A stretch of DNA of 64,000 nucleotides from positions 1,798,001-1,862,000 of the forward strand of contig NZ_CP122458.1 of assembly GCF_032598905.1 (NCBI RefSeq), in the 5' to 3' direction. Source of the stretch: Streptomyces sp. 11x1. GTDB lineage: Bacteria; Actinomycetota; Actinomycetes; Streptomycetales; Streptomycetaceae. The position numbers and the translations under genes are program-made. Positions 16,776 through 62,975 of the stretch are shown one piece after another (within the stretch, counting starts at the first letter, position 1; each line of letters starts with the position of its first letter). The notes below the pieces were generated by a model. It saw only the letters and a program-made list of their open reading frames with translations. It had not been told where the DNA came from and ran no database searches.

Positions 16776-16806
16776 CACCGCGGAGGACGTCCGACAGCCG
16801 CGGGCC

Positions 16807-35948: not shown

Positions 35949-36177
35949 GTTCCGGCCACCTTTGCGTCACGATCCTGGGGTCAGCCTGTCATAGGGGGTG
36001 GGGGCGCCGGGGTGGCATCGAGGGGGCGGCACGGGGGCACGGCTCGGCAAGGGGGCGGGCAGGGGCCGGCGCTTGCCGTGCGTCGCGGGCCGCGGGTCGT
36101 CGGTGGCCGGTCGCGCAGTTCCCCGCGCCCCTGGAGGGCGCTGGTGCACCCGGCGCTCGAAGAGGCACGTGGTGCCC
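35949..36177. other. Intergenic region with a gene-end repeat
   Basis: This 229-bp gap separates the 3' end of the gene at 36178 from the start of the phosphodiesterase gene, both on the minus strand. It holds a G-rich stretch (35995-36065) and a repeat copy at 36101-36142. No ORF was supported. Confidence 0.5.
36101..36142. repeat. Gene-end repeat copy
   Basis: GGTGGCCGGTCGCGCAGTTC continues into CCCGCGCCCCTGGAGGGCGC, with a short GCGCCC/GGGCGC hairpin. It lies 36 bp past the stop of the minus-strand gene at 36178. Confidence 0.7.
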
Positions 36178-41710: not shown

Positions 41711-41911
41711 CGGGGGGACTCCTTCGGCCGACTCCGGCGGGGTGGGGGCACGACCGCCGTGCCCCGCGTCCATCAGAGCGCCGAGCCCCACGGGGCGCGC
41801 GTCACCGGGCACCATTCGCGGGACGCGGAGGGCCGACCGGGTGACGGTTCGCTCCGCCGCGTTCGCCGGTGAGCACCGTGGCGGGAGCGGGTTCGTGGTC
41901 GGCTGCCGGTT

Positions 41912-41956
41912 CGTTGTGGCTGGTCGCGCAGTTCCCCGCGCCCCTATGGGGGCGTG
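41912..41956. repeat. Gene-end repeat copy after the ANTAR gene
   Basis: GTTGTGGCTGGTCGCGCAG runs into TTCCCCGCGCCCCTATGG, ending in a CGCCCC/GGGGCG hairpin with a TATG loop. It lies 17 bp past the stop of the minus-strand gene at 41974. Confidence 0.75.
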
Positions 41957-42800: not shown

Positions 42801-43913
42801 ATGACCCAGACGGACGAATTCGGTGAGGAACTCGCGGATTTCGTACACCGTGTCGCGGAGCTCAAGGCGGCCCGTTCGGTGCCGACGGGAGATCTGCCGA
42901 CGGTCCTGGACGCGGCGTTCTTCGAACTCGACCACGTCGCGGACCAGTTGTGGCCGTGGTACGAGCGACTCACCGCCTCGGGTCCGGCCGGCGGCACCTC
43001 GTCCGCCGCGCAGGAGCACCAGTTGCTGAGGACCATGTTCCAAAGCCTGCCGCTGCCGGTGCTGTTGGTGGACCGCGAGACGGTGGTGCGGCGCCTCAAC
43101 CAGGCCGCGACCGCCTTCACCGGCGTACGGTCCGGTTATGCGACGGGCCGTCCGCTCAGCGGTTTCCTCGCCCATTCCGACCGGGGCGCGTTCCGTTCGC
43201 AGGCGGCGGCCGTGGCCCGCGGCGAGGGCGACCGCAGTCTCAGCGTCCACCTGCAGCAGCGCCCGTCGTTGCCGGTCCGCGCCACGCTCACCAAGCTGCG
43301 CCCCGGCAGCGGTGAGCCGCGCAACACCGTCCTGGTCCTCCTCCAGCCGGCCGGACACCGGATGCCGACCGTCGAGCCCCTGCGTCCGCTGCCCAACCTC
43401 ACCGAGACCACCCGCCACGCGGCCCTGATGGACCTCCTCGACGCGATGACCACGGCCCTGCTCACGGCGCCGGCCGGTACGGCCCTCGACCGGGCGGCCC
43501 GTGTCCTGCACGGCCGCTTCGCCGACTGGGTGGTCGCCGACACGACGACTCCCGGCCTCGCGCGCTCCACGGTCCTGGCCCCCTCGGAGGAGGAGGCAAA
43601 GCTCCTGGTGTCCCAGGACCCCGCCACCTGTCCCCTCGTCGTCACGGCCGCCCGGGGCGGTTCCCCCGCCCTCCAGATCCGTCCGGCCGACCCGGCCGCC
43701 TTCGGCCACGACGGCTCGGGGGCCCCGGTCCTCGTGAAGGCCGATGTGACCTCCCTGCTGACCGTGCCGCTGGCTCCCCCGGAAGGCCCGGTCACGGGCG
43801 TCCTGACCCTCTTCCGCTCAGGCGCCCGCCTGGCCTTCTCGATGGCCGAGGCCCAGGCGATGGACACGATGTCCCGCCACATAGCCCTGGCCATGGAAAC
43901 CCGGGCCCCGTAA
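42801..43913 (+). CDS. PAS-GAF sensor protein without an output domain
   Basis: The 370-residue protein has a PAS domain (residues ~75-185; MFQSLPLPVLLVDRETVVRR, AATAFTGVRSGYATGRPLSG) and a GAF domain (~210-365; LLDAMTTALLTAPAGTALDR, SLLTVPLAPPEGPVTGVLTL). Such tandem sensors usually carry a PP2C (SpoIIE/RsbU) phosphatase that acts on anti-sigma antagonists. Here the protein ends with the GAF domain, so it would act through partners. It is close to a sigma factor of the SigB/SigF type and an ANTAR protein, which suggests stress signalling. The stop touches a gene-end repeat. Confidence 0.82.
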   Translation: MTQTDEFGEELADFVHRVAELKAARSVPTGDLPTVLDAAFFELDHVADQLWPWYERLTASGPAGGTSSAAQEHQLLRTMFQSLPLPVLLVDRETVVRRLNQAATAFTGVRSGYATGRPLSGFLAHSDRGAFRSQAAAVARGEGDRSLSVHLQQRPSLPVRATLTKLRPGSGEPRNTVLVLLQPAGHRMPTVEPLRPLPNLTETTRHAALMDLLDAMTTALLTAPAGTALDRAARVLHGRFADWVVADTTTPGLARSTVLAPSEEEAKLLVSQDPATCPLVVTAARGGSPALQIRPADPAAFGHDGSGAPVLVKADVTSLLTVPLAPPEGPVTGVLTLFRSGARLAFSMAEAQAMDTMSRHIALAMETRAP

Positions 43914-43945
43914 GGGGCGCGGGGAACTGCGCGACCAGCCACGAC
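43914..43945. repeat. Gene-end repeat copy, inverted, after the PAS-GAF gene
   Basis: GGGGCGCGGGGAACTGCGCG followed by ACCAGCCACGAC is the reverse complement of the copies at 16807 and 33816. It begins directly after the stop codon of the PAS-GAF gene. Confidence 0.8.
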
Positions 43946-44003
43946 GAACCCGCAGACGACCGACGCACCCCACCCCCACGGCGCCCACGGCCAACCAGCG
44001 GAG

Positions 44004-44792
44004 CTACACCGCGTCCTTCATCACCTGGTCCCGCAGCCGATCACAGCACCGGCTGATCAACCGCGACACGTGCATCTGCGAGATCCCCAACTGCTCGGCG
44101 ATCCGGCTCTGCGTCATGTCGCCGAAGAACCGCATGTACAGGATCGCCCGCTCCCGCTCCGGCAGCGCGGCCAGCCGGGGCTTCACGGCCTCGCGGTCCA
44201 CCACCGTGTCCAACGCGGGGTCCGGCGCCCCCAGCGCGTCGCTCAGCGAGTAGCCGTCCTCGCTCCCCGGCAGCTCCGCGTCCAGCGACAGCGCCGTGAA
44301 GCTCTCCAGGGCCTCCAGCCCCACCCGGACGTCCTCCTCGCTCATGTTCGCGTGTGCGGCGATCTCCGCGACGGTGGGGCGTCGCCCGGAGATGGTCTGG
44401 GACAGGTCCTGACTGGCGAACCGCACACGGTTGCGCAGGTCCTGGACCCGGCGCGGCACGTGCAGGGTCCACATGTGGTCCCGGAAGTGCCGCTTGATCT
44501 CACCGGTGACGGTGGGCACGGCATAACTCTCGAAGGCGTTCCCCAGCTCGGGGTCGTAGCGGTCGACGGCCTTGACCAGGCCGAGCGAGGCGACCTGGCG
44601 CAGGTCGTCGTAGCTCTCACCGCGGTTGCGGAACCGGCCCGCGAGCCGTTCGGCCATGGGGAGCCATGCCTCGATGATCTGCTCACGCAGGGTGTCCCGC
44701 TGTTGACCGGGCGGAAGTGCGGCCAGCTGGCGGAAGGCCTCCGCGGTGTCGGGGGCATCGTCGTGCGGATGATGCTTCGCCTGGGTACGCAT
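44004..44792 (-). CDS. RNA polymerase sigma factor of the SigB/SigF/SigG group
   Basis: The 262-residue protein has sigma region 2 (YDDLRQVASLGLVKAVDRYD, FESYAVPTVTGEIKRHFRDH), region 3 (VPRRVQDLRNRV, RRPTVAEIAAHANMSEEDV) and region 4 (ERERAILYMRFFGDMTQSRI, LGISQMHVSRLI), typical of the stress and sporulation sigma-70 branch. These factors are held by anti-sigma proteins and released by antagonist phosphorylation. The ATG at 44792 is used. Its neighbours (PAS-GAF, ANTAR) fit a stress module. Several paralogues occur per Streptomyces genome, so its exact identity is not assigned. Confidence 0.93.
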   Translation of the reverse strand: MRTQAKHHPHDDAPDTAEAFRQLAALPPGQQRDTLREQIIEAWLPMAERLAGRFRNRGESYDDLRQVASLGLVKAVDRYDPELGNAFESYAVPTVTGEIKRHFRDHMWTLHVPRRVQDLRNRVRFASQDLSQTISGRRPTVAEIAAHANMSEEDVRVGLEALESFTALSLDAELPGSEDGYSLSDALGAPDPALDTVVDREAVKPRLAALPERERAILYMRFFGDMTQSRIAEQLGISQMHVSRLISRCCDRLRDQVMKDAV

Positions 44793-44968
44793 GGTGCGTC
44801 GCAACTCCCTGGATGGCGCTTCTGGGATGGACGGTCACCGTGGGGGCGCGGAGCTGCACGAGGGACAGCACACCCGTGAGGGAAACCTCGCCACTTCCAC
44901 GGACGTGCCTCCTGTCCGAAGCACTTCTATGCGCCTGCCCCGGATCATGCATGGCAAACACATTCGGG

Positions 44969-44992
44969 GTTTTCCATTCCGCCCGCGGGTGA
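44969..44992 (+). promoter_or_regulatory. Candidate stress-sigma promoter before the TPP enzyme
   Basis: GTTT and GGGTGA are separated by 14 bp, close to the SigB-type consensus GNNT-N14-16-GGGTAC. It ends 34 bp before the ATG at 45027. One base of the -10 box deviates. Confidence 0.4.
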
Positions 44993-45026
44993 CTCGCTCG
45001 GGAGACCACACCCCGGGAGGTCCAGT

Positions 45027-46835
45027 ATGAGCACCACCGTCGCCGATCACATCTTGCGGAGGCTGCGCGAATGGGATATCGAACAGGTATTCGGCTACCC
45101 AGGGGACGGCATCAACGGGCTGCTCGCGGCCTGGGGCCGGGCCGAGGACCGGCCGCGGTTCATCCAGTCCCGGCACGAGGAGATGTCCGCCTTCCAGGCG
45201 GTCGGCTACGCCAAGTTCTCCGGCCGGCTCGGGGTGTGCGCGGCGACGTCGGGCCCGGGGGCGATCCACCTGCTCAACGGGCTGTACGACGCCAAACTGG
45301 ACCATGTGCCGGTGCTGGCGATCGTCGGCCAGACGCACCGCAGCGCGATGGGCGGCTCCTACCAGCAGGAGGTCGACCTGCACACCCTGTTCAAGGACGT
45401 GGCCTCGGACTTCGTCGAGACGGTGACCGTGCCCGAGCAGCTGCCGAACGTCCTCGACCGGGCGATCCGCACCGCGTACGCCCGGCGGGCGCCGACGGCC
45501 GTCATCGTCCCCGGTGACGTGCAGGAACTGGAGTACTCGGCGCCGACCCACGAGTTCAAGATGGTCCCCTCCAGTCTGGGCGGCGGCTCCTGGACGGCGG
45601 TGCCGTCGGCGGAGTCGGTGGAGCGGGCCGCCGAGATCCTGAACGCCGGCGACAAGGTCGCGATCCTCATCGGGCAGGGCGCCGCCGGTGCCCGTGCCGA
45701 GGTGGCCCGGATCGCCGAGCTGCTCGGCGCGGGCGTCGCCAAGGCGCTCCTCGGCAAGGACGCGCTGAGCGACGAACTGCCGTACGTCACCGGCTCGATC
45801 GGGCTGCTGGGCACGCGCCCCTCGTACGAGCTGATGCGTGACTGCGACACGCTGCTGACCATCGGCTCGTCCTTCCCTTACTCCCAGTTCCTGCCGGACT
45901 TCGGCAAGGCGCGGGCCGTGCAGATCGACATCGACCCGCACATGGTCGGGATGCGCTACCCGTACGAGGTGAATCTCGTCGGGGACGCCAAGGCGACGCT
46001 GGAGCGGCTGATCCCGCTGATCGATCCGGAGCGGGGGCGCGATTGGTACGACGAGGTGTGCGCGGGGGTGGCGCGCTGGCGCGAGGTGACGGCGCGCCGG
46101 GCTGAGCTGTCGGCTGATCCGATCAACCCCGAGCTGGTGGCCCACGCCCTCGATCCGCTGCTGCCGCACGACGCGATCATCTCCTCGGACTCCGGTTCGG
46201 CGGCGAACTGGTACGCCCGGCACATCACCATGCGCGGACGCATGCGGGGCTCGCTGTCCGGCACGCTGGCGACGATGGGGTGCGGGGTGCCGTACGCGAT
46301 CGGCGCGAAGTTCGCGCACCCGGACCGTCCGGCGATCGCCCTGGTCGGGGACGGGGCGATGCAGATGAACGGCATGGCGGAGCTGATCACCGCGGCGAAG
46401 TACCAGGACCGCTGGGAGGATCCGCGGCTGGTGGTGGCCGTCTGGAACAACCACGACCTCAACCAGGTGACGTGGGAGCTGCGGGCGATGGGCGGCGAGC
46501 CGTCCTTCCTGCCCTCGCAGGAGCTGCCCGACGTCCAGTACGCCGCCTTCGCGCGCTCGCTCGGGCTGACCGGGATCCGGGTGGAGAAGCCGGAGGACGT
46601 CGAGGCGGGCTGGCGCGCGGCCCTCGCGGCGGACGGTCCGGCGGTGGTGGAGTTCCTCACCGACCCGGCGGTGCCGCCGATCCCGCCGCACGCGACCTGG
46701 GAGCAGATGGAGTCCACGGCCGCCTCGATCCTCAAGGGCGACGCCGACCGGGCGTCCATGGTCAAACAGGGCTTCAAGGCGAAGATGCAGGAGTTCCTGC
46801 CGGGCGCCGGGTCGAAGAAGCACGACGGCTGTTGA
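45027..46835 (+). CDS. TPP-dependent pyruvate oxidase/acetolactate synthase-like enzyme
   Basis: The 602-residue protein has the three TPP-enzyme domains. The PYR domain contains the activating Glu (SRHEEMSAFQAVGYAKF). The middle domain has LLTIGSSFPY and AVQIDIDPHMVG. The PP domain has the metal-binding VGDGAMQMN and the later Asn in WNNHDLNQV. SGPGAIHLLNGLYDAKLDH is as in the PoxB group. It is closest in feel to PoxB-type pyruvate oxidases, which turn pyruvate into acetate with FAD. The substrate needs proof. It is a single gene with its own promoter region. Confidence 0.9.
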   Translation: MSTTVADHILRRLREWDIEQVFGYPGDGINGLLAAWGRAEDRPRFIQSRHEEMSAFQAVGYAKFSGRLGVCAATSGPGAIHLLNGLYDAKLDHVPVLAIVGQTHRSAMGGSYQQEVDLHTLFKDVASDFVETVTVPEQLPNVLDRAIRTAYARRAPTAVIVPGDVQELEYSAPTHEFKMVPSSLGGGSWTAVPSAESVERAAEILNAGDKVAILIGQGAAGARAEVARIAELLGAGVAKALLGKDALSDELPYVTGSIGLLGTRPSYELMRDCDTLLTIGSSFPYSQFLPDFGKARAVQIDIDPHMVGMRYPYEVNLVGDAKATLERLIPLIDPERGRDWYDEVCAGVARWREVTARRAELSADPINPELVAHALDPLLPHDAIISSDSGSAANWYARHITMRGRMRGSLSGTLATMGCGVPYAIGAKFAHPDRPAIALVGDGAMQMNGMAELITAAKYQDRWEDPRLVVAVWNNHDLNQVTWELRAMGGEPSFLPSQELPDVQYAAFARSLGLTGIRVEKPEDVEAGWRAALAADGPAVVEFLTDPAVPPIPPHATWEQMESTAASILKGDADRASMVKQGFKAKMQEFLPGAGSKKHDGC

Positions 46836-46848
46836 ACGGCACTGAAGA

Positions 46849-46907
46849 GTTCAGTTGCGCACGAAAGAGTTCAGTGGTCGGTTCAGTAGCGCGGTGAACT
46901 GTTCAGT
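46849..46907. repeat. Four GTTCAGT direct repeats
   Basis: GTTCAGT starts at 46849, 46869, 46881 and 46901, so spacing is 20, 12 and 20 bp. The first two are part of a longer AGAGTTCAGT. ACTGAA precedes the cluster and TGAACTGTTCA forms a palindrome at its end. Another copy of AGTTCAGT occurs on the minus strand at 54188-54194 upstream of the peptidase gene. Confidence 0.75.
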
Positions 46908-47030
46908 GCCGTACCTGGCATCGTGGTGCGGCTGAATGTCCCGACGTCACGCCACGTGTCCGAGTCAGTTGTCCCCGGCCGGTAGCGGCGGGGAGTTCTC
47001 CAGCAGCCACACGATGCGCGTCGGCATCTC

Positions 47031-47096
47031 TGAGCTCGACCGGTCACACACCTGCTCGTGGCGTTCATCGACAAGCACAGGGGCCGCGTCGGCGAC
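47031..47096 (+). mobile_element. Remnant of an IS3-family transposase junction
   Basis: In one frame the end of OrfA can be read (ELDR), and in the next HLLVAFIDKHRGRVGDV, which resembles the start of IS3-type OrfB (xxxFIDxHRxRFGV). The arrangement matches the overlap where these elements shift frame. About 66 bp remain and no terminal repeats were recognised. Confidence 0.5.
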
Positions 47097-47140
47097 GTCG
47101 GCCGCCCGCACCGGCCGCGACAGCGACCGCGAGTCAAGAC

Positions 47141-47306
47141 CGCAGCACCGAAGTCGCTTCTGGTGATGGCCGATCGGCTCGGCGTCCTTGGCCGTTCGGC
47201 GGAGGTGGTCCGGAAGCTTGGCAGAGGCGTCAGGGCGTCCCCACCGGCGACGTTGGTCGCATGACTCAGATCGAGATCTCGCACGAAACGCCACCTCCGC
47301 GGCACG
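47141..47306 (+). promoter_or_regulatory. Duplicated leader, copy A, running into the acyltransferase gene
   Basis: By hand alignment, 143 of 166 bases match the minus strand at 54049-53884. The copy covers ~120 bp upstream of the ATG at 47261 and the first ~15 codons. Conserved blocks include CGATCGGCTCGGCGTCC and CGGAAGCTTGGCAGA. It is probably a shared promoter and regulatory region. Confidence 0.8.
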
Positions 47307-48529
47307 GGGCACCCGCTGAACCCGCGGGCGTGGTCGAACAGCAGCCGTCGGTGGGGCGGTTGGTCGGGGTGGACCTGGCCCGCGCGCTGGCGGTGTTCGG
47401 CATGTTCGCGGTCCACGTCGCCCCACCTGCCGAGGACGTGGGTGGCTTCGGCGGCTGGCTGCTGGAACTGACCGAGGGCCGGTCGTCGATCCTGTTCGCC
47501 ACCCTCGCCGGGTTCTCGCTGATGCTGATCGCCAGCCGTCGGGAGCCGAAGACCGGCCTGGCCGGCCGGCAGGCGAAGGCCCGGATCGTGATCCGGGCTG
47601 TGGTCCTGCTGGCGCTGGGCACCGTGCTGACGATGCTCAGGACCGGGATCCTGGTGATTCTCGCCTTCTACGGGGTGTACTTCCTGCTGGCACTGCCCCT
47701 GATACGACTGCGGGCCAGAACCCTCGCGATCATCGCGGCCGTGCTCGCGGTCGTCGGGCCGCAGGCGGCGTTCGGCCTGAAGTGGCTGCTGGGCGAGACG
47801 ACGGCGAAGATCATCAACACCTACGACCCGATCGGCAGGCTCGGCGGCGACGGACTGCTGGGTCTGCTGCTCGACGGCTACTACCCCGCGATCACCTGGA
47901 TGCCGTTCGTGATCGCCGGCATGGCACTGGCCCGGCTCGACCTGGCCGCCGGCGTGGTGCAACGTCGGCTGGCCGCGCTCGGCGCCGCGCTGATGGCGCT
48001 CGGATACGGGACCGCCTGGCTGACGGCAAGGCTGTACCCGCCCATTCAGGCGGACAAGGCCGCTCTGAAGGAAGCCTTCGCGAACCTGGATCCGAACTCC
48101 ATCGAATCCCTGCGACCGGGATCGCCGGCCTTCGACTACATCAACAACAAGGTCACGGACAGCGCGAACATAGCCTCGTCGCTGCTGGGAGCCGAGCCGC
48201 ACAGCGGTACGACCTTCGAGATCATCGGCGGCCTCGGCGTGGCGATCACCGTACTCGTCTGCGCGACCGCGACCATGGCCCGGCTCGCGTGGCTGCGCCT
48301 GCTGGCGAGCCCGCTCATCGCCGTGGGCACCATGTCCCTGACGCTCTACGTCGCCCACGTCGCCGCCTACGCCATGCTGCCCGATGAGGCCATCGGCACC
48401 TTTGTTCCGCTGCTCGGGTTCATCGCCGGGGCGATCGTGTTCGCCACCGTCTGGTCGCGCTTCTTCCGCCGCGGACCGCTGGAGTACCTGCTCAACAACA
48501 CCACCAAACTGGCGAAGTTCGTCCGGTGA
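47261..48529 (+). CDS. Multi-pass membrane acyltransferase (DUF418/HGSNAT-like)
   Basis: The 422-residue protein has about eight to ten hydrophobic helices. RLVGVDLARALAVFGMFAVH at residues ~32-51 is the signature of the heparan-alpha-glucosaminide acetyltransferase/DUF418 group, with its His in the membrane. Further segments are FATLAGFSLMLIAS, IVIRAVVLLALGTVLTML, YYPAITWMPFVIAGMAL and TLYVAHVAAYAMLP. They use acyl-CoA to modify extracytoplasmic sugars or lipids. The first ~16 residues (MTQIEISHETPPPRHG) are shared with the unrelated peptidase at 53929 and come from the duplicated leader. The kinase gene follows. Confidence 0.85.
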   Translation: MTQIEISHETPPPRHGAPAEPAGVVEQQPSVGRLVGVDLARALAVFGMFAVHVAPPAEDVGGFGGWLLELTEGRSSILFATLAGFSLMLIASRREPKTGLAGRQAKARIVIRAVVLLALGTVLTMLRTGILVILAFYGVYFLLALPLIRLRARTLAIIAAVLAVVGPQAAFGLKWLLGETTAKIINTYDPIGRLGGDGLLGLLLDGYYPAITWMPFVIAGMALARLDLAAGVVQRRLAALGAALMALGYGTAWLTARLYPPIQADKAALKEAFANLDPNSIESLRPGSPAFDYINNKVTDSANIASSLLGAEPHSGTTFEIIGGLGVAITVLVCATATMARLAWLRLLASPLIAVGTMSLTLYVAHVAAYAMLPDEAIGTFVPLLGFIAGAIVFATVWSRFFRRGPLEYLLNNTTKLAKFVR

Positions 48530-48768
48530 GACGCGGCGTGTCAGGGCCCGTTCGCCCTTCGCCCGAACAAGGTCGGCCCTGGCTGAGCCCGGATACGATG
48601 ACCACGGCCCCCGTCCTCGGGTACGGTCGGCGCCGATCACGGGCTACCGGTCATCACCGCTGCACTGCTGCGGCTGGTGACCCCGGCCGGCGTGGCCCGG
48701 ACGCGGCTGCGCTCATCGGTCGGGCGACCGCCCGGCTCGGCGGCCACCGCCGTCGTCGTGGAGGTGCC

Positions 48769-49974
48769 GTGGCTGGTTGGGCGAAACTCCCCGAGGTCGT
48801 CACCGCCGGGGCGGTGACGACCTGGCAGGGCAGGTTGCTGTTGGCGTGGTGGTTGTTCCTGCCCGCCACGGCGATCGTCACGGCCGTCATCAACGTGCCC
48901 GGGCAGCCCGCAACAGCGATCGGCCTGCTGGCCGCCGCACTCGCCCTGCTCTGCCGGTTCACCTGGCCGATCACCTCGCTGCTGGCAGGGACCGGCCTCG
49001 CGGCAGTGGCGTTGATCTTGCAGAGCACGACCCTGCTGGCTTTTGTCTGGCCGGTGAGCGTGATGCTCGCCTATGCGGTGGGCCGCCAGGTCCCGGACAC
49101 TCGCCTCGCGGTGGCCGCTCTGACGCTCGCCACCGGCGTGCAATCCGCGGCCAGCTTCGTCGAGCTCGCCGGGCTGACGGTTGACCTGGAGGATGTCGGC
49201 CGCATCGTCGTCATCAATGTGCTGCTGGTGGTACTGCCGGGCGCCATCGGCATGCGGCAGGGGGAGCGAGCCCTGGCCATGGATGCCCTGCACGAACGCA
49301 ACGCCCTGCTGGAACGCGCCAACCTGCTCGGCGAGTCGCAGGCCCGGATGCAGGAAAGGGCGCGCATCGCCGGCGAGATGCACGATCTGCTCGGCCACCG
49401 GCTCAGCCTGATCGTCCTGTACGCCGGTGCCCTGGAGATGCGCACCCGCACCGCGGCCCCCGAGATCAACGAGCAGGCCGACCTGCTGCGGACCACCTCC
49501 CGGACCGCACTCGACGAGCTTCGCACGGTGCTGGGCATCCTGCGCCTCGACGGCGCCGAACCACCGGACGGCGCCGAATCGGCGGTCGGCACGCGCGAGG
49601 ATGTCACCAGCCTGGTCGCCGAAGCCCAGCATGCGGGCCTGCCCCTCACCCTGTCCTGGCGCGGCGGCGACCTCACCGACGCCGACACCGGCATCCGCCG
49701 AGCGGTCAACCGCATCGTGCGCGAAGCCCTCACCAACGTGCACAAACACGCCCCGGGTGCGCCAACCCGGCTGACCGTCACCGTCGACACCGAAAAACTC
49801 ACCATCAACGTACTCAACGTCGCACGCCCGCCCGCCGTCCCACCGCCCAGCAGCGGCCTGGGACTGGCCGGCCTGCGCGAACGCGCCCGCCTGGCCGGCG
49901 GCGACTTCACCGCCGGCACAGACCCGCTCACCGGCAACCACGCCCTCACCGCCACCCTCCCCCTGCGCCATTGA
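48769..49974 (+). CDS. Two-component sensor histidine kinase (NarL/DesK-type)
   Basis: The 401-residue protein has ~5 N-terminal helices (RLLLAWWLFLPATAIVTAVI, AIGLLAAALALLCRF, LLAGTGLAAVALIL). A HisKA_3 domain carries the phospho-accepting His in EMHDLLGHRLSLIVL, and HATPase_c has the N-box VREALTNVHKHAP and the G-box GLGLAGLRERARLAG. GTG at 48769 is preferred because GGAGG lies 4 bp upstream; the frame stays open back to 48526. The likely response-regulator gene is convergent at 50380, an unusual arrangement. Confidence 0.9.
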   Translation: MAGWAKLPEVVTAGAVTTWQGRLLLAWWLFLPATAIVTAVINVPGQPATAIGLLAAALALLCRFTWPITSLLAGTGLAAVALILQSTTLLAFVWPVSVMLAYAVGRQVPDTRLAVAALTLATGVQSAASFVELAGLTVDLEDVGRIVVINVLLVVLPGAIGMRQGERALAMDALHERNALLERANLLGESQARMQERARIAGEMHDLLGHRLSLIVLYAGALEMRTRTAAPEINEQADLLRTTSRTALDELRTVLGILRLDGAEPPDGAESAVGTREDVTSLVAEAQHAGLPLTLSWRGGDLTDADTGIRRAVNRIVREALTNVHKHAPGAPTRLTVTVDTEKLTINVLNVARPPAVPPPSSGLGLAGLRERARLAGGDFTAGTDPLTGNHALTATLPLRH

Positions 49975-49986
49975 AGCCCGGGCGCA

Positions 49987-50333
49987 ATGAGCCCGACCAT
50001 CGATCAACCCGCCCTGGCCGACGCGCAGATGCTCCCCTCCCGTACCGGGGCCGAAGACGGGCCCCACCACCACGCATCACGAAGGAAGACCAAGACGGCC
50101 TTCATCGCCCTCGCCGGAGTCGCCGTCGCGGTCTGCGGCGGTCTCGGCTCAGCGTCTGTTCTTACTTCGAGTCTGCCGTCTCGCCACTGACCTACCAGCA
50201 AATCAAGATCGGCGACACCCAGGACAGGGTGCGCGAGCTGACCGGCGGCGACAGCATGACCGCCCGCAAAGCGGGCCGGTTCTGCTTCCACGACGCCAAG
50301 CTCGCGCAGAAGGTCGAGATCCGGACGCCGTAG
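49987..50333 (+). pseudogene. Small single-helix membrane or exported protein, frameshifted
   Basis: The first frame gives a hydrophilic N-terminus, KTKTAFIALAGVAVAVCGG as a membrane or signal helix, then stops at 50190. The continuing part, SYFESAVSPLTYQQIKIGDT and QDRVRELTGGDSMTARKAG, is in another frame. Together they make a ~110-residue protein like those with a helix followed by an 'SPLTYxQIxxGDTxxxVRxL' domain. The frames switch near 50150-50165. It lies between the kinase and the regulator, so an accessory role in that system before decay is plausible. Confidence 0.6.
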
Positions 50334-50379
50334 GCGGAACCCGGCAAGCCGACGCTTCGCGTGGGCTCGACGAGGCGGA

Positions 50380-51045
50380 TCAGGAACGGCTGCCTGGCGG
50401 AAGAACTCCGGCATCATGCGCCAGGATCGCCGCCTGAACCCGGTTGGTGCAGCCAAGGACGGAGAGGATGCGACTGACGTGAGACTTGGCGGTGCCTTCA
50501 CTCATCAGCAGCGCCTTGGCGATCTCAGCGTTCGAGCAGCCCTCACGCAGCAGGCACAGCACGTCGCGCTCGCGGTCGGTCAGAGCCGCGACACGGCGCC
50601 GCGCATCGTCGGCCTGGCTCACGTCGCGGTTGACGTGGCGATCGATCAACTGCTGGGTGACCCGGGGCGACAGGACGGGCTCACCGGCGGCCGCCACCCG
50701 GACAGCCCTGATCAGGTCGTCGGGCGGGGTGTCCTTGAGCAGAAACCCCGCAGCGCCGCAGCGCAGCGCCCGGGTGACGTACTCTTCCTCACCGAAGGTG
50801 GTCAGCATGACCACGCTCGTCCGCGGCGCCACCGTTCTTATCTCGACGGCCGCGGCCAGCCCGTCGACGCCAGGCATGCGAATGTCCAGCAGCGCGACGT
50901 CAACGAGGTGCTTGCGAGCGAGCTCGACGGCGCCGGCACCGTTGTCCGCCTCGGCCACGATCTCGATGTCATCGGCGACGTCGAGCACGAACCGGATCCC
51001 GGCGCGGATCAACGCCTCGTCGTCGGCCAACAGCACCCGAATCAC
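50380..51045 (-). CDS. NarL/FixJ-family response regulator
   Basis: The 221-residue protein has a receiver domain with the acidic pair in VLLADDEALIRAG, the phospho-acceptor Asp in VALLDIRMPGVDG, Thr in VVMLTTFGEEEYV and Lys in GFLLKDTPPDDLI. A LuxR-type HTH follows (LTDRERDVLCLLREGCSNAE, LLMSEGTAKSHVSRIL). GTG at 51045 is chosen because it is directly before IRVLLADDE. It is convergent with the histidine kinase, with a broken small gene between; in this family the pair usually sits in one operon. Confidence 0.92.
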   Translation of the reverse strand: MIRVLLADDEALIRAGIRFVLDVADDIEIVAEADNGAGAVELARKHLVDVALLDIRMPGVDGLAAAVEIRTVAPRTSVVMLTTFGEEEYVTRALRCGAAGFLLKDTPPDDLIRAVRVAAAGEPVLSPRVTQQLIDRHVNRDVSQADDARRRVAALTDRERDVLCLLREGCSNAEIAKALLMSEGTAKSHVSRILSVLGCTNRVQAAILAHDAGVLPPGSRS

Positions 51046-51440
51046 CCTGCCACCCCCCTCAGTCAGCCGCGACGTCCCCGACGGCCGACGCGCGAGCCGA
51101 CTCCGGTCAGAACGCGGCGAGTGCCGCAGGCGTTGGCACCCAATTATCGACGGACGGCATGGCGACGCACACCGAACGGCAAAGTGCGGCACTTCAGGCT
51201 GGTCTGACGGCAATTTCCCCGCCTCCGGCTCACGGTCGGCCCGGGTGGCTGATGTCGAGTCGGTCACCCGGAACGTGATGATTGCCCCCGGAGCGGCGTG
51301 CGGCCGCCGGTGGTGGCCGAACCGGCGGAATCGGCGGCTGGTGGAGATGACTGCACGGATGACCGACGCGGCGAAGACGGTGCTGAAGCAGTGGCGAACC
51401 ACGGTCTCGCTGTCGGGGAGCGTGAGGGCTTCCGCCGCCC
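51046..51440. other. Region without an intact gene, upstream of the response regulator
   Basis: These ~395 bp include the promoter of the response regulator. They lack consistent codon bias and no coding segment could be assigned. They are probably decayed sequence continuing into the monooxygenase remnant. Confidence 0.4.
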
Positions 51441-51829
51441 TCAGGACCGAAAGATGCCGACCGTTTCGGCCACTGCCGCGCGGACGAGTTCGGCCGCGGG
51501 CAGGTCTGCCCACCGGCTGGTGTCGGCGAATACCTGCCGGTCACTGGGCACTTCGCCGACGGCACCACGGCGCAGCACGACGTGTTGGTCGGCGTCGACG
51601 GCATCGACTCACTGGCCCGACGCACGCTGTGGGGCCCCAAGCAGGAGCATCGGCTGCACATCTTCGGCGGATTCACCATCACAGGGCGACGCCGAGCACA
51701 CCCGACCTCGCCGTACGCCGCCTGCGGAGCCGGTATGTCCACCGAGGACGGCTGCTTCCTCGGCCGCGCGCTGCGCGGCGTCGACCTCACTGCCCCACAG
51801 CACACCTCACAAAGCTACGAGGACCAGGT
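51441..51829 (+). pseudogene. Remnant of a FAD-dependent monooxygenase gene
   Basis: The plus frame reads ADEFGRGQVCPPAGVGEYLP, VTGHFADGTTAQHDVLVGVD and GIDSLARRTLWGP, then EHRLHIFGGFTI, joined directly to AHPTSPYAACGAGMSTEDG and CFLGRALRGVDL. The DVLVGVDGIDSLARR and (D)AAHPTSPYAACGA motifs belong to PHBH-like flavin monooxygenases. The N-terminal FAD-binding region is missing, and the segment between FGGFT and HPTSPY is deleted. Coordinates are approximate. Confidence 0.65.
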
Positions 51830-51846
51830 GAGCGCCGTCGCCCGGA

Positions 51847-51880
51847 AGGCGGGCGGCCGGGCATGCCCGGCCGCCCGCCT
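51847..51880. terminator. Terminator after the peptidase gene
   Basis: GGCGGGCGGCCGGG and CCCGGCCGCCCGCC form a perfect 14-bp stem around CATG, extended by one A-T pair. It lies a few bases beyond the peptidase stop. Confidence 0.8.
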
Positions 51881-51883
51881 CGG

Positions 51884-53929
51884 TCAGTTGCCGGGGACGC
51901 GCTGTGCGGTGTGCGGTGCCCGCACGCCGTCCAGGACCCTGGCCTCGGGTGCGGTGGAGGTGCCGCCCGAGGTGGCGCGGGTGAACGCGGCGGCGCCGCC
52001 GAGGAGCGGGACGCGAACCGACGTACGGGCCAGGTCCAGGGTGAGCGTCGGGGTGGTGGACGGCGGTTCGATGAGGTTCTTGTCCGTGCCCGCGACGATC
52101 AGGGCCAGGCGGTGCCCCTTGGGGACGACGTGGTCGGTGGCCGCGAGGTCGAGCGTGATGGTGTAAGCCTTGCCCGGGGTGAGCGGGACCCCCTTGCGGT
52201 CGGAGGCGTGGTTGCCGAGGTCGGCCCACCCGCGGCTGAACACGGTGTAGTCGACGGACCTCTTCTTCGCCCGCGTTGCCTTGAAGCACGCGCTGTCCCG
52301 CTTGGTGCTGCTGCCCCAACAGGTGCGGTTGGTGAGGGTGGTGATGCCCTCGGCCTTGTCGGCGTGGTCCCGGATGGTGTCGGGGCCGAGGTCGACGAGG
52401 ACGGCGGACAGATGGGCCGTCGACGTGGTCGGGGTGGCGGTGACGGTGACCTTGGAGGAGCCGGACAGACGTAGGTCGCTGGTGAGCGGCTTCGTCAGGA
52501 AGCCGGCCTTCTCGGGCGTCGTGCTGCCGATCCGCGCCGCCCAGTCGGTTTCGCCGCGCGCGCGGTTGTCGGTGAACGTCTCGGTGCCGGTGCTCTTGTT
52601 CAGGCCGAGGGTCCCCACGCCCGGCCGACTGCCGATGGCCGGGTGAAGGGTGGTGGTGTGCGTGTCGCGCGACGGCCACACGTTCGAGGTGACCCACTGG
52701 TCGGGGTGCCGCTCGATGTCGGCCATGGGCTCACGGTCGATGCCGTTGTCGTAGCCGAGGAGTTCGTGGTCGAACCAGCGGTGCAGGGCATGGACCCAGT
52801 CGGCGCGCCGGAAGTCGAAGGGGTCGACGTGACCGGTCTGGGAAAGCCAGATCTTGCGCTCGACGCCGTTCTTCGCGAGGGCGTCCCACCACTGCCCGAA
52901 ATGCTTGGCGCGGACGTTGAGGTCTTGCATCCCGTGCACGAGAAACACGCTCGCGCGTACCTTCGCCGCGTCCTTGACGTAGTCGCGCTCAGTCCACAGG
53001 GGCGTCCTGTCACCGCTGCGCGGGGCCCCGTCGACGAGCTTGCGCTCCATGGCCGCACAGCGCCTGGAGGCGTCGTCGCTCTGCACTGCGAAGGACAGCC
53101 AGTCGGGGCCGAACTCCGAAAACGGGGCACCCTTGGCGAAGTAGTAGTCGTACCAGGAGGAGATCGCGCTGATCGGAACGATCGTCTTCAGGCCCTTGAC
53201 GCCGGTGGCGGCGACGCCGTTGGCTATGGTGCCGTCCCAGCTCTTGCCGATCATGCCCGTGCGGCCGTTGGTCCAGGTCGCCTTGACGGCGGTGCCGCCG
53301 CGCCGGCTGGTGTAGGCCCTGGCGCGGCCGTTCAACCAGTCGACGACGGCCTTCGCGGACCGGATGTCGCTGCGGCCGCCGACATCGACGCAGCCGTCGG
53401 AGCGGTTGGTGCCGGCGAGGTCGACGCCGACGAAGGCGTAGCCGCGGGGAACGAAGTAGTTGTCGTAGAACAGCGGCATCCGGCCGACGCGACCGCGCGT
53501 GTCGTACGTCTTCTTCTGGCTCTCGTTGCCGCGCCCGCAGCAGGAGTAGTACGGGCTGGCGTCCATGATGACGGGGACCTTGCGGCCCAGCCGGGCGGGT
53601 TCGCGGGGCCGGACGATGTCGGCGGCGACGCGGTCGTTCCTGCCGTCGCCATCGCCGTCGAGGCCGGTGTCCACCCAGACGGACTCACGGACGGCATGGG
53701 CGTAGGAGTAGACCGGTCGGCTCTCCTTCGGGGCGGGGGCGGCCCGGGCCGCCGCCGGGGTGAGGAAGGTGGCCAGCAGGGCGGCCACGGAGGCGGTCGC
53801 GTACGTTCTGTAGATCGTGAAGCGCGTGCGTTTCCCCGTACGCGGAGGCGGCCCAACGACCGCGGGCACGGGCACGATGATCGCGTGCCATGGAGGTGGC
53901 GTTTCGTGCGAGAACTCTGTCTGAGTCAT
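51884..53929 (-). CDS. Secreted S15-type X-Pro dipeptidyl-peptidase/CocE-like hydrolase
   Basis: The 681-residue protein has an unusually long N-terminus: ~38 residues before a signal helix (TYATASVAALLATFLTP, ending AARAAP). The alpha/beta hydrolase domain follows with the nucleophile in IGKSWDGTIANG, the Asp in LVHGMQDLNV and the His in SQTGHVDPF. A C-terminal jelly roll (~460-681) is as in PepX/CocE enzymes. They cut X-Pro dipeptides or acyl esters outside the cell. The first 15 residues (MTQTEFSHETPPPWH) come from the duplicated leader shared with 47261; the original start may have been closer to the signal helix. Confidence 0.9.
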   Translation of the reverse strand: MTQTEFSHETPPPWHAIIVPVPAVVGPPPRTGKRTRFTIYRTYATASVAALLATFLTPAAARAAPAPKESRPVYSYAHAVRESVWVDTGLDGDGDGRNDRVAADIVRPREPARLGRKVPVIMDASPYYSCCGRGNESQKKTYDTRGRVGRMPLFYDNYFVPRGYAFVGVDLAGTNRSDGCVDVGGRSDIRSAKAVVDWLNGRARAYTSRRGGTAVKATWTNGRTGMIGKSWDGTIANGVAATGVKGLKTIVPISAISSWYDYYFAKGAPFSEFGPDWLSFAVQSDDASRRCAAMERKLVDGAPRSGDRTPLWTERDYVKDAAKVRASVFLVHGMQDLNVRAKHFGQWWDALAKNGVERKIWLSQTGHVDPFDFRRADWVHALHRWFDHELLGYDNGIDREPMADIERHPDQWVTSNVWPSRDTHTTTLHPAIGSRPGVGTLGLNKSTGTETFTDNRARGETDWAARIGSTTPEKAGFLTKPLTSDLRLSGSSKVTVTATPTTSTAHLSAVLVDLGPDTIRDHADKAEGITTLTNRTCWGSSTKRDSACFKATRAKKRSVDYTVFSRGWADLGNHASDRKGVPLTPGKAYTITLDLAATDHVVPKGHRLALIVAGTDKNLIEPPSTTPTLTLDLARTSVRVPLLGGAAAFTRATSGGTSTAPEARVLDGVRAPHTAQRVPGN

Positions 53930-54049
53930 GCGCACAACGTCGCCGGTCCGGACGCCTGGACGCGTCTGCCAAGCTTCCGCACCACCCCCGCCGAACGGCA
54001 GAGGACGCCGAGCCGATCGACCATCACCGGGAGCGGCTCCGGTGTCGCG
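53884..54049 (-). promoter_or_regulatory. Duplicated leader, copy B, running into the peptidase gene
   Basis: This is the inverted partner of 47141-47306 (about 86% identity by hand). It contains the ATG at 53929 and ~120 bp upstream. ACCGGCGACGTTG just before the start and the CGCACGAAACGCCACCTCC block within the coding part are conserved. Confidence 0.8.
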
Positions 54050-54355
54050 GCGGGAACCGAGATGCGCCTGCGTCGTGTCCCTGCAACTCTCCGTCCCGGC
54101 CGCGTTCTGCTTGAGGATCAGGGGGTCTGTCAAACGATTTGCAGTCCCGCGGAACCACGAACGCGTTCCGGGATCAGGGCCACGAGGACTGAACTTTTTC
54201 CTTTCGTCCGACAACGGCGACGGTGCGTCCTGAGGCACGCGCCACCGGTTCCGCGCGCCGCCGGTCCGCGCCCCGGAGGTCCGTGACCCGGCTCCCCCGT
54301 GTCGGTGCCGGGTGTTCGGGTACGCGGGGGCCACCAACCGATCTGGAGGGGAGTC
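53930..54355. other. Divergent region upstream of the peptidase and the DUF2795 gene
   Basis: Apart from leader copy B, this 426-bp gap includes a CGGAAC/GTTCCG inverted repeat (54148-54168), an AT-richer patch (54125-54145), the AGTTCAGT motif on the minus strand (54188-54195), and a stress-type promoter for the downstream gene. No ORF was supported. Confidence 0.5.
54299..54323 (+). promoter_or_regulatory. Stress-sigma-type promoter before the DUF2795 gene
   Basis: GTGT and GGGTAC with 15 bp between them match the SigB-type consensus GNNT-N14-16-GGGTAC exactly. The expected start of transcription is ~54331, with GGAGGGG at 54345 and ATG at 54356. Confidence 0.6.
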
Positions 54356-54838
54356 ATGCAGCGAGGCAGCGACCGGATGAGCGCCCACCGCGACGACGAG
54401 ATGAAGCACGAACTGCAGGGATTGCTCCGATCTGGGCATCCCACCCGGACGGAGGAGTGGAACGACCCCGAGCCCTACGCAGAGGACGATCCGGAGGTGG
54501 CGCACGGGCCGGTGACGCCGAGCCGGGCGCCCGCGCGGGTGGAGGCGCTGCGGCTGGACCTGGCCCGGGTCCTGGGCCGTACGTCGTTCCCGGCGGGCCC
54601 CGCCGAGCTGATCCGGGTCCTGCGGGACCGGCACGCCCCGGACGGGCTGGTCGCGCCCCTGGAGCGACTGCCGCGGAAGGCCCGCTACGACTCGGTCCAC
54701 CAACTCGCTGAGGCGGTGGTCCAGGTCCAGGACGAGAGCGGTGGGACCGGGGGAGCCGGAGCGGCCGGAGAAGCGAGGGGTGGGGCCGCGCGGCCCCCGG
54801 CGGAGGCCACGGAATCCACACACGACGGGGACACATAG
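54356..54838 (+). CDS. DUF2795 domain protein
   Basis: The 160-residue protein has an acidic N-terminal half (RTEEWNDPEPYAEDDPEVAH) and, at ~80-128, the DUF2795 helix bundle (FPAGPAELIRVLRDRHAPD, LVAPLERLPRKARYDSVHQL). The tail is Gly/Ala-rich (SGGTGGAGAAGEARGG). DUF2795 proteins are small, abundant and of unknown role in actinobacteria. GGAGGGG precedes the ATG at 54356. It is first in a plus-strand run that includes CBS, decarboxylase-like, PfpI and catalase genes, and a stress-type promoter is in front. Confidence 0.85.
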   Translation: MQRGSDRMSAHRDDEMKHELQGLLRSGHPTRTEEWNDPEPYAEDDPEVAHGPVTPSRAPARVEALRLDLARVLGRTSFPAGPAELIRVLRDRHAPDGLVAPLERLPRKARYDSVHQLAEAVVQVQDESGGTGGAGAAGEARGGAARPPAEATESTHDGDT

Positions 54839-54925
54839 GGCCCCTCCTCGCGGGTACTGCGGGCAAGGTCACGCCGATGCGGGCGCGACCCCGGTCGAGA
54901 CGGAGCGGCGAGAGGCCCGGAGACC

Positions 54926-55576
54926 ATGGCCGAGTTCGTGAGGGAAGTCATGACGCCAGGTGTGGCGACGGTCCGCCCGGACGCCTCCCTCGTGGAGGCT
55001 GCGCAGCTGATGCGCGCCCAGAACATCGGGGACGTGCTCGTCGCGGCCGACGGACACGTGATCGGGGTTCTGAAGGACCGCGACATCACCCTGCGGGCCG
55101 TCGCCGACGGGGCCGACCCGCTGACAGTGAGCGCCCAGGCCGTCTGCACCCCGAACCCGGTCGTGATCGGCCCGGACGACGCGGTGTCCGCCGCCGTCGC
55201 GCGGATGCGCGACCACGCGATACGCCGACTGCCCGTCATGGAGGGCGGACACCCGGTGGGCATGGTCAGCCTCGGCGACCTGGCCGTCTCCCAGGACCCG
55301 GGCTCGACGCTCGCCCACATCAGCCGGGCATCCCCCGAACCATGGCCACGGACCGACCGAACCGCCGGGACCAGCCCGGGAGCGGACCGGTTATTCGCCA
55401 CCGACTCAGGAACGGACCGGCTCTCCGGCGCCGACCCAGGGGCGGACCGGCTCTCCGGCGCCGACCGAGGTCCGGACCAGATCTGCGGGGCCGACCCGCG
55501 GACGGCCTCGGGCTCGGGATCCGGTTCCGAAACAAACCCGGGCTCCGGCGTCGGCCCGGGGCCGGTCCCGGCCTGA
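54926..55576 (+). CDS. CBS-domain protein with repetitive C-terminal tail
   Basis: The 216-residue protein has a tandem CBS pair (residues ~7-125; VMTPGVATVRPDASLVEAA, NIGDVLVAADGHVIGVLKDR, AVSAAVARMRDHAIRRLPV), a module that usually senses adenine nucleotides. After ~125 the sequence is low-complexity, with repeats around ADRLSGADPGADRLSGADRG and a SGSGSGSE stretch, encoded by near-identical ~27-bp DNA copies at 55410-55470. The tail is probably unstructured. Stand-alone CBS proteins in Streptomyces are linked to stress. It is in the run that ends with katE. Confidence 0.87.
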   Translation: MAEFVREVMTPGVATVRPDASLVEAAQLMRAQNIGDVLVAADGHVIGVLKDRDITLRAVADGADPLTVSAQAVCTPNPVVIGPDDAVSAAVARMRDHAIRRLPVMEGGHPVGMVSLGDLAVSQDPGSTLAHISRASPEPWPRTDRTAGTSPGADRLFATDSGTDRLSGADPGADRLSGADRGPDQICGADPRTASGSGSGSETNPGSGVGPGPVPA

Positions 55577-55755
55577 CCGGGCGGCTCGCCTCCGACGGAC
55601 CGTGGCGGCGCGCCCCGCCCACCGACACCAGCCAGCCGGCTGAACCGCCGCCGACGCACACCACCAACGCCGACCCCGTCCCGACATCCCCAGCCCCGAC
55701 CCCAAGCGCGCCCCCGGCCCCCACCCCGCATCGGACAGCCACCGGCACGGAGACC

Positions 55756-57252
55756 ATGGACGACGACAGCGTGACCACCGATCAGCGGCCCGACCACTCC
55801 CGTACCCCCGTCCTGGAGGCCCTGGAGCGCTACCGGCGCGCCGACCGCCGGCCTTTCTCACCGCCCGGCCACAAGGGTGGCGTGGGCGTGGACGCGCGGG
55901 TCGCCCTGACGCTCGGTCCCGATGTGATCGCCTCGGACGTGCTCGCCCTGAACGGCCTGGACGACCGGCGGATGTCCGGCCGGGTCCTGGAGCGGGCCGA
56001 GGAGCTGATGGCGCACGCCGTCGACGCGGACCGGGCCTACTTCTCGGCCTGCGGCAGTTCCCTGCCGGTGAAGGCGTCGATGCTGGCGGTCGCCGGGCCG
56101 GGCGAGAAGCTGCTGGTCGCGCACAACGCCCACAAGTCCGTGATCGCGGGCGTGATCCTGGCCGGCATCGAACCGGTGTGGGTGCGCCCGCGCTGGGACG
56201 CCGAGCACCGGCTGTCGCATCCGCCGGGCCCCGAGCAGGTCACCGAGGCCTTCGAGCGGGCGCCCGACGCGAAAGGCATGCTGCTGGTCACACCCACGGC
56301 GTACGGCACCTGCGCGGACATCGCCGCCGTCGCGGAGGTCTGCCACGCGCGCGGCCGCCCGCTGACCGTCGACGAGGCGTGGGGCGCCCATCTGCCGTTC
56401 CACGAGGCCCTGCCGAGCTGGGCCATGGACGCGGGCGCCGACCTGTGTGTGACGTCGGTGCACCAGATGGGGGCGGGCCTGGAGCAGGGCTCGGTGTTCC
56501 ATCTGCGGGGCGACCTGGTCGATCCGGCGGTGCTCAGGCTCCGCGGCGGCCTGCTCAACACCACCAGTCCGTCGGTCCTGATGTGGGCGGCGCTGGACGG
56601 GTGGCGGCGGCAGTTGGTGGAGCGCGGCCATGAACTCCTGGACCGGGCGCTGAGGTTGGCGACCCGGCTGCGTACCGAGGTGGCCGCGCTGCCCGGACTC
56701 GTCCCGCTGGCCGACGCCGAACTCGCCGGTCCCGACCGGGCGTTCGCGTACGACCCGCTGATGGTCGTGATCGACGTCTCCGGCCTCGGTACGAGCGGGT
56801 ACGCGGCCGTCGAGTGGCTGCGCGAGCACCACCGGGTGGATCTCGGGCTCGGCGACCACCGACGTGTCGTGGCCCAACTCACCCACGCCGACACGGAGGA
56901 GAGCTGCGCGGCGCTCCTCGACGCCCTCACGGACCTCGTGAAGCGTCGCGAGTCGCTGCCGCCGCGGCCGGACGTACGGCTGCCCGAGCCGGAGGAGCTG
57001 GAGCTGGAGAGCGTGCTGCTCCCCCGCGACGCCTTCTTCGGGCCGGTGGACCAGGTGCCGCCGGCGGAGGCCGTGGGCCGGGTGGCGGCGGAGCCCGCCA
57101 GCCCCTATCCGCCCGGAGTGCCGGTGATCTGTCCGGGCGAGCGGATCAACCGGGCGGTCGTGGAGTACCTCGGGTCGGGCGTGGAGCACGGCATGTACGT
57201 ACCCGATCCGTCGGACCCGGAGCTGCGCGCCCTGCGGGTGGTGGCCCGATGA
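55756..57252 (+). CDS. Orn/Lys/Arg decarboxylase-fold protein with Gln at the catalytic lysine
   Basis: The 498-residue protein matches fold-type I Orn/Lys/Arg decarboxylases: FSPPGHKGGVGVD, AYFSACGSSLPVKASML, VAHNAHKSVIAGVILAG, MLLVTPTAYGTCADI, VDEAWGAHLPFH, then a C-terminal domain (VPVICPGERINRAVVEYL). The usual SxHK that holds PLP reads SVHQMGAGLEQGS (CAG instead of AAG). With Gln it could bind PLP only non-covalently, so activity is doubtful, unless the base is a read error. The ATG at 55756 is chosen from homologous length. The PfpI and catalase genes follow. Confidence 0.83.
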   Translation: MDDDSVTTDQRPDHSRTPVLEALERYRRADRRPFSPPGHKGGVGVDARVALTLGPDVIASDVLALNGLDDRRMSGRVLERAEELMAHAVDADRAYFSACGSSLPVKASMLAVAGPGEKLLVAHNAHKSVIAGVILAGIEPVWVRPRWDAEHRLSHPPGPEQVTEAFERAPDAKGMLLVTPTAYGTCADIAAVAEVCHARGRPLTVDEAWGAHLPFHEALPSWAMDAGADLCVTSVHQMGAGLEQGSVFHLRGDLVDPAVLRLRGGLLNTTSPSVLMWAALDGWRRQLVERGHELLDRALRLATRLRTEVAALPGLVPLADAELAGPDRAFAYDPLMVVIDVSGLGTSGYAAVEWLREHHRVDLGLGDHRRVVAQLTHADTEESCAALLDALTDLVKRRESLPPRPDVRLPEPEELELESVLLPRDAFFGPVDQVPPAEAVGRVAAEPASPYPPGVPVICPGERINRAVVEYLGSGVEHGMYVPDPSDPELRALRVVAR

Positions 57253-60072: not shown

Positions 60073-60104
60073 CAGGGGCGCGAGGAACTGCTCGATCAAC
60101 CACG
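60073..60104. repeat. Diverged gene-end repeat copy
   Basis: AGGGGCGCGAGGAACTGCTC followed by GATCAACCACGAC resembles the reverse-complement copy at 43914-43945, with several changes. It lies directly after the katE terminator. Confidence 0.55.
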
Positions 60105-60172
60105 ACGCACCCGCATCCCGCAGCACACCCGACGGCCCCGAGCTCCGAACGGCCCCCTACGCCCTCGCCCCC

Positions 60173-62705: not shown

Positions 62706-62799
62706 GGGGCGCATTGTCCGAGCCGCGCCACCACACGGGCAAATCCATTTCGTTGTCGGGCGTGGGTGCCTTGTCGGGTGCCGGTCCGGTGGGGCTGGA

Positions 62800-62873
62800 C
62801 GCGCTGTTCCCCGCGCCCCTTGCTTTCGGCCCGAAAGGGCCGTAGGCCCTTGAGGGGCGCGGGGAACAGCGCG
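62800..62873. repeat. Large cruciform-like inverted repeat between the ABC-F and PAP2-kinase genes
   Basis: Two perfect 21-bp arms (62800-62820 and 62853-62873, beginning CGCGCTGTTCCCC) flank a 32-bp interior. The interior has two more hairpins, TTTCGG/CCGAAA and GGGCC/GGCCC, so the whole can fold as a three-way structure. The arms resemble the gene-end repeats elsewhere in the window but sit here between divergent starts. Confidence 0.85.
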
Positions 62874-62975
62874 AGAAGCCCCACTCACCCGCACCCGGCA
62901 ACGCAACCCCACCCACCCTCACCGAACCCCACCCCGCCCGACACGGTTCCGTCGCCATGGGGTACCCGTGGACCC

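Follow-up and report, generated by a model that had tools for sequence, protein, structure and literature searches.

Bacterial gene fusions born of deletions, in which the start of one open reading frame (ORF) is joined to another, have been described in a preprint by Kaul et al. (PMC12803068); its accessible part also mentions localised promoter capture at deletions, and its authors report no clear novel beneficial function for their fusion cases. For the TmAT superfamily, which includes the HGSNAT/YeiB branch of membrane acyltransferases, a DxxR motif was named in the accessible part of a second source (PMC12423673). Here, we describe a 64,000-nucleotide stretch of Streptomyces sp. 11x1 (contig NZ_CP122458.1, positions 1,798,001 to 1,862,000 of the forward strand; hereafter the window) in which a gene coding for an S15 Xaa-Pro dipeptidyl-peptidase (S15) and a gene coding for a multi-pass acyltransferase (AT) share a leader and their first codons. 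The best explanation, which we consider very probable, is that S15 captured the AT promoter through fusion to a duplicated, decaying AT gene.

Compared with the fusions in the accessible part of the preprint, S15 keeps the enzyme domain complete while acquiring a promoter and about 30 residues, the fusion is common to several species, and both parents survive as separate genes. AT resembles the HGSNAT/YeiB branch, as far as the accessible part of PMC12423673 describes it, in combining HGSNAT_cat (PF07786, 34.3 bits, cut-off 22) with DUF418 (PF04235, 30.4 bits, cut-off 23.6) and in carrying a DLAR (DxxR) motif within VDLARAL near its N-terminus; unlike the members described there, it represents an actinobacterial group with a conserved promoter and, often, a linked two-component system. 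The mechanism of fusion belongs to a known type; the operator and its genes were not found described in the literature searched, as judged by titles and the beginnings of abstracts. Few cases in which fusion supplies an old enzyme with a ready-made promoter can still be followed joint by joint. In this one, the donor, the recipient, the two junctions and the former start codon are all legible in extant relatives; the locus is a clear instance of how fusion rewires a bacterial gene.

The S15 gene begins with two pieces of the AT gene

Self-comparison of the window by BLASTN aligned 47140–47306 (+) with 54050–53884 (−) at 144 of 167 positions (86%, gap-free, E = 1.1e-50), the longest among the 114 inverted pairs in 44000–57000. 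The first-pass annotation had counted 143 identities in 166 positions, a figure reproduced exactly when the comparison was computed on its limits, and its estimate of the extent (about 120 bp upstream and some 15 codons) agrees with the ATGs at 47261 (AT) and 53929 (S15), which place approximately 121 bp of upstream DNA and the initial 15 codons of each gene within the repeat. When the repeat DNA was used as query against the 10.67-Mb genome, two matches were obtained at E <= 0.001.

A second inverted pair, overlooked in the earlier annotation, adjoins the first repeat on the S15 side only and comes from the interior of the AT gene (Table 1). Its members are identical at 34 of 38 positions and lie in the same codon phase, the segment being translated to AIIVPVPAVVGP in S15 and to AIIAAVLAVVGP in AT. 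The maximum reached in 2,000 codon shuffles of the AT gene was 27/38, and elsewhere in the window, on either strand, the best score was 24/38. Read from its 5' end, the S15 gene thus consists of the AT leader, AT codons 1–15, AT codons about 156–167 and the old S15 start, with 420 bp (140 codons, from the coordinates) absent in frame between the two AT relics. DNA homology to an ordinary S15 gene (L099) begins just before the old start codon, whose position reads Met in two relatives (L013 and L098). The 5' part was homologous to AT and the 3' part to ordinary S15, in frame, and the product matched NF003780 (838 bits, cut-off 642), PF02129 and PF08530, with residues about 43–63 resembling a signal peptide by eye. 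In L014 (Streptomyces torulosus), the AT codons following the ATG are gone, yet the spacing between leader and ATG is kept. Judged from these alignments, the gene is an S15 paralogue, distinct from ordinary S15, that has lost its own promoter and starts with the AT leader and codons. In this respect, the first-pass annotation was right that one promoter, start region and N-terminus had been placed on two unrelated genes, and also in naming duplication as part of the origin.

S15 is the recipient and AT the donor

At E 1e-100 or better, 257 of 392 Streptomyces genomes, that of strain 11x1 among them, contained an S15 match. Most of the matches listed begin near query residue 28, ordinary S15 starting about 30 residues later, and many ordinary S15 genes start MPKRTRFTIW... 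or similar, with other DNA upstream. The genome of strain 11x1 itself keeps an ordinary S15 (1490128–1492077, 76%). A leader model, R1, was built from 20 near leaders (trained on L012–L022 and the window) and showed no match at E < 0.1 in the 26 best-scoring ordinary S15 loci (L099–L124), two weak matches reaching E = 0.28 and 0.77. It recovered the leader in all four leader-bearing S15 loci, three of which were in its training set (L095, the window's own S15; L096, the L022 record; L097, the L019 record). In a protein tree, seven leader-bearing S15 proteins formed one clade against 20 ordinary ones (100/100); the latter comprised 19 of the 26 loci and the genome's own ordinary S15, with L102, L105, L111, L114, L116, L117 and L123 left out, as was the leader-bearing L013 for its deletion. 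These sequence comparisons indicate that S15 is the recipient, and AT the donor, of the leader and start codons. The first-pass annotation would have taken the repeat for a local duplication if homologues of both proteins lacked the shared N-terminus and no other genome carried the leader; ordinary S15 homologues do lack it, but AT homologues and one S15 clade elsewhere carry the leader. This divided outcome points to an old, inherited promoter capture, not to an accident local to this genome.

The leader is conserved with AT. Among 44 loci with AT relatives taken from species genomes, the near relatives L012–L022 (76–96% protein identity, best segment) have the leader in common with the window, and its skeleton persists upstream of ATs only 55–62% identical in Micromonospora, Nocardia, Saccharothrix, Kitasatospora and other Streptomyces. 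R1 matched 34 of the 392 Streptomyces genomes (own genome included). In the 29 R1 loci from other genomes (L066–L094), AT lay at the predicted start in 20, one of them 4 nt off, and was absent from that place in nine (L070, L071, L077, L081, L089, L091–L094); without L067–L069, which are training genomes, the count is 17 of 26. A wider model, R2, was built from 46 leaders and found 11 sites in the own genome at E 1.7e-5 or better, four of which had trained it. All five AT paralogues (three untrained) and S15 lie behind such a site; the remaining sites stand before a small ORF that leads into an ABC exporter region and before four short ORFs, among which L136 looks like a truncated AT N-terminus. 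Across 53 sources, mostly chosen for encoding AT, the best 78 of 118 R2 matches were classified (the 40 weaker ones being left out): 50 precede AT, eight precede S15 and 20 precede other sequences, and the start codon stands exactly at the model-predicted place in all 50 AT and eight S15 cases. As the sources were AT-chosen and many of the leaders were in the R2 training set, 50 of 78 is not an unbiased rate. A direct DNA search of 199 genomes, the own included, returned nine other genomes matching over 25–51 bases only, which were set aside as short or chance matches. Taken together, the leader is the ancestral promoter/operator of the AT gene.

AT genes seem to duplicate and decay often. Element copies were seen before short ORFs in L154 (7193–7270), L155 (6907–6995), L126 (10852–10952), L131 (6166–6266) and L017 (18976–19078), and at least three of these ORFs (L154, L131 and L017) read like cut-off AT N-termini. 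Elsewhere in the own genome (L126 6297–8475, about 1064.3–1066.5 kb), a second AT has an element copy pointing away from it; behind this copy come a 71-aa ORF (MTHRARHKEL...) and an ABC exporter that is apparently split over several overlapping frames. The 656-aa ORF behind the match at L049:14601 had no Pfam match.

The leader carries paired operator-like sites and a putative −10 hexamer

Each leader contains two CCGnTCGGC sites 22 bp (about two helical turns) apart, and this was the commonest spacing of such sites in the 46-row leader alignment (counted 37 times). Mean column identity was 88% across the 20 near leaders. In 34 distant AT leaders, GCCGGAT at −41 to −35 was conserved at 91–100% per position, A at −11 at 97% and T at −7 at 100%. 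A(−11) and T(−7) occupy the second and last places of a TAnnnT hexamer, the form of a −10 element; transcription would therefore start near the ATG. By eye, no Shine-Dalgarno-like run was seen in the two window leaders. As in leaderless actinobacterial genes, the −10-like hexamer ends 6 nt before the ATG, and both AT and S15 would be transcribed as leaderless mRNAs starting at the ATG.

A sensor histidine kinase gene and a NarL-type response regulator gene sit between AT and S15. The kinase falls below the cut-off for HATPase_c (25.1 bits, cut-off 26.4). Relatives of the response regulator (>=43% identity over >=150 aligned positions) were found in 29 of the 44 AT loci, relatives of the kinase in 31 and both in 28. 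The neighbouring regulator would bind the two CCGnTCGGC sites, and its binding to both leaders would switch AT, with the kinase, and the peptidase together; common control of AT and S15 by the linked two-component system is the likeliest reading of these sequences. ABC exporter genes directly follow the element in L031 and L035; in L037, a response regulator gene follows it 25 nt further downstream. It may, tentatively, be a portable leaderless promoter of an actinobacterial envelope regulon under a NarL-type two-component system, which would recruit genes via fusion to decaying AT duplicates, as in S15 and maybe in the ABC exporter with its short MTxxxRxKE start ORF. If so, each recruit of the regulon wears the first AT codons as a scar. 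The operator is a common mark of a set of membrane acyltransferases, of an ABC exporter and of a sensor system, and its conservation offers a concrete test of whether the fusion recruited the peptidase into a two-component regulon.

Alternative explanations

The fusion could be real but inconsequential, S15 having hitch-hiked on a deletion and its leader being a fading relic. In line with this, S15 is internally deleted in L013 and has changed C-terminal ends in L098/L127, L022 and L019, the ratio of nonsynonymous to synonymous change (Nei-Gojobori dN/dS) was 0.28–0.65 in 15 pairs among six leader-bearing S15 genes (the damaged frames of L013 and L098 being left out), and the genome retains its ordinary S15. 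Against this, the start codon and spacing of the leader are kept in all eight classified leader-bearing S15 copies, and, of 55 columns conserved in distant ATs, three S15 leaders keep 42–44 and seven near-AT leaders 41–45, the operator columns being kept as well as in AT leaders. Differences between the S15 and AT leaders are also fewer at conserved columns than elsewhere in Streptomyces scabiei (4/50 vs 16/45, Fisher p = 0.001) and in strain NRRL S-455 (13/50 vs 22/45, p = 0.018); those in the window are not significantly fewer (5/50 vs 7/45, p = 0.31). We regard this explanation as unlikely.

That the 121 bp are transcribed and act as a regulatory RNA or leader peptide (an attenuator or riboswitch), as the first-pass annotation had suggested, is very improbable. 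The leader is highly conserved and admits a consensus fold of −20.5 kcal/mol, but compensatory changes were absent from all 21 predicted pairs (covariation term 0.1), both of the Rfam matches obtained (E = 0.18 and 0.22) were far under the gathering scores and outside the leaders, and the spacing of A(−11)/T(−7) suggests a start at the ATG, which would leave no transcribed leader.

A self-moving promoter cassette inserting before unrelated genes, also proposed at first, is hardly credible: a related element does precede short MTxxxRxKE-type ORFs (L015, L026, L053, L126 and L153, also L071 and L172) besides the exporter and regulator genes named above, but the genome holds two close DNA copies, AT is the commonest gene behind the element (in R1 loci outside the training genomes and in 9 of 21 R2 matches in other genomes, three of them training genomes), and the S15 copy holds internal AT coding sequence, which is not expected of a promoter cassette.

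Gene order in relatives and a proposed history of the fusion

Both parents of the fusion exist unfused, as AT paralogues and as ordinary S15. In S. torulosus (L014), S. cavernae (L016), S. scabiei (L019) and NRRL S-455 (L022), S15 is transcribed away from a neighbouring AT with the leaders back to back. Where the AT and S15 leaders of L022 overlap, they share a perfect palindrome of 20 bp (L022:9925–9944), which would double as AT proximal site and S15 distal site. S. cavernae has a second AT–kinase copy on the other side of S15, and S. torulosus a leader relic there (5315–5392). In the window, L012 and L013, the DNA read has AT on that far side alone.

For promoter capture by fusion, we propose that a former AT copy lay upstream of S15 in the same orientation, and that two deletions would have created the fusion by joining AT pieces to the bases just before the old S15 start. 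S15 would once have had duplicated AT modules on either side, the arrangement seen in S. cavernae, and the present 6.6-kb convergent layout would have arisen when the copy adjacent to S15 was lost; the inverted arrangement is thus probably due to duplication of the AT module on both sides of S15 and loss of one side.

Several observations weigh against promoter capture or the regulation proposed for it, in addition to the damaged S15 copies and the non-significant leader contrast in the window. None of the loci read showed a complete AT with S15 downstream on the same strand, and L127 (G428) has a leader-bearing S15 with no AT in the 16 kb read. Fifteen of the 44 AT loci have no such regulator in the DNA examined, some of them on short contigs. 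The element is patchy: R2 found it in 15 of the 296 genomes examined for the class, strain 11x1 being one of the 15; among the 21 matches in the other 14 genomes, 10 lie before something else, including unrelated genes and short ORFs, nine lie before AT within 1 base of the predicted start (three being the training loci L158, L159 and L163), one precedes a short MTxxxRxKE ORF and one the L037 regulator (L164 and L175 are from the same genome as L037). In addition, the S15 leaders of L019 and L022 are 76% and 68% identical to that of the window, against 91% and 95% for the S15 coding DNA, and S15 and AT leaders do not form separate clusters, so that later exchange with AT leaders or several leader captures are possible.

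The mismatch in L019 and L022 perhaps stems from exchange of S15 between species. The AT–kinase DNA of these two loci is 83–85% identical to that of the window, while their S15 coding DNA is 91–95% identical. In the window, L012, L013 and L016, S15 leaders are 92–99% alike across species, compared with 88–91% to their own AT leaders; L014, L019 and L022 fall outside this pattern. These comparisons leave gene conversion between the AT and S15 leaders as a possibility.

Features of the locus and other repeats in the window

Table 1. Positions of the AT and S15 genes, their leaders and the genes between them in the window.
Feature	Position	Strand	Basis
AT leader (promoter/operator), the original	47140..47260	+	inverted repeat; conserved upstream of AT homologues
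Distal site CCGATCGGC, putative regulator site	47170..47178	.	22-bp spacing in aligned leaders
Proximal site CCGTTCGGC, putative regulator site	47192..47200	.	22-bp spacing in aligned leaders
GACGTT, putative −10 hexamer, ends 6 nt before AT ATG	47249..47254	+	conserved A(−11)/T(−7)
AT, multi-pass acyltransferase, HGSNAT_cat + DUF418, 422 aa	47261..48529	+	PF07786, PF04235 above cut-off
AT segment, codons about 156–167, copied at S15 5' end	47725..47762	+	34/38 vs 53885–53848
Sensor histidine kinase, start overlaps AT stop	48526..49974	+	HisKA_3 above cut-off; adjoins AT in near relatives
NarL/LuxR-type response regulator, candidate binder of both leaders	50380..51045	−	Response_reg + GerE; relatives in 29/44 AT loci
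S15 Xaa-Pro dipeptidyl-peptidase, AT-derived N-terminus, 681 aa	51884..53929	−	NF003780; Peptidase_S15 + PepX_C
Former S15 start codon, now ACG (Thr31, codon 31)	53837..53839	−	DNA alignment with ordinary S15 gene L099
Relic of AT codons about 156–167 inside S15	53848..53885	−	34/38 match
Relic of AT codons 1–15 (MTQTEFSHETPPP...) inside S15	53884..53929	−	inverted repeat
Captured S15 leader	53930..54050	−	inverted repeat
S15 leader putative −10 GACGTT	53941–53936	−	
S15 leader sites TCGATCGGC and CCGTTCGGC, putative regulator sites	54020–54012, 53998–53990	−	

Just after the S15 stop codon lies a terminator-like palindrome (51847–51880), one of three perfect or near-perfect palindromes in the window, the others being at 7891–7924 and 9053–9089 (34/34 twice, 97% of 37 once). 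Away from the locus, an inverted 300-base pair (13083–13382 and 13974–14273) is 68% alike, and a family of dispersed repeats of roughly 45–100 bases occurs in both orientations, 82–93% alike in the listed pairs; dispersed repeats lie at 16797–16853, 33799–33856, 36078–36144, 41851–41954, 43900–44004, 60074–60115 and 62754–62914.

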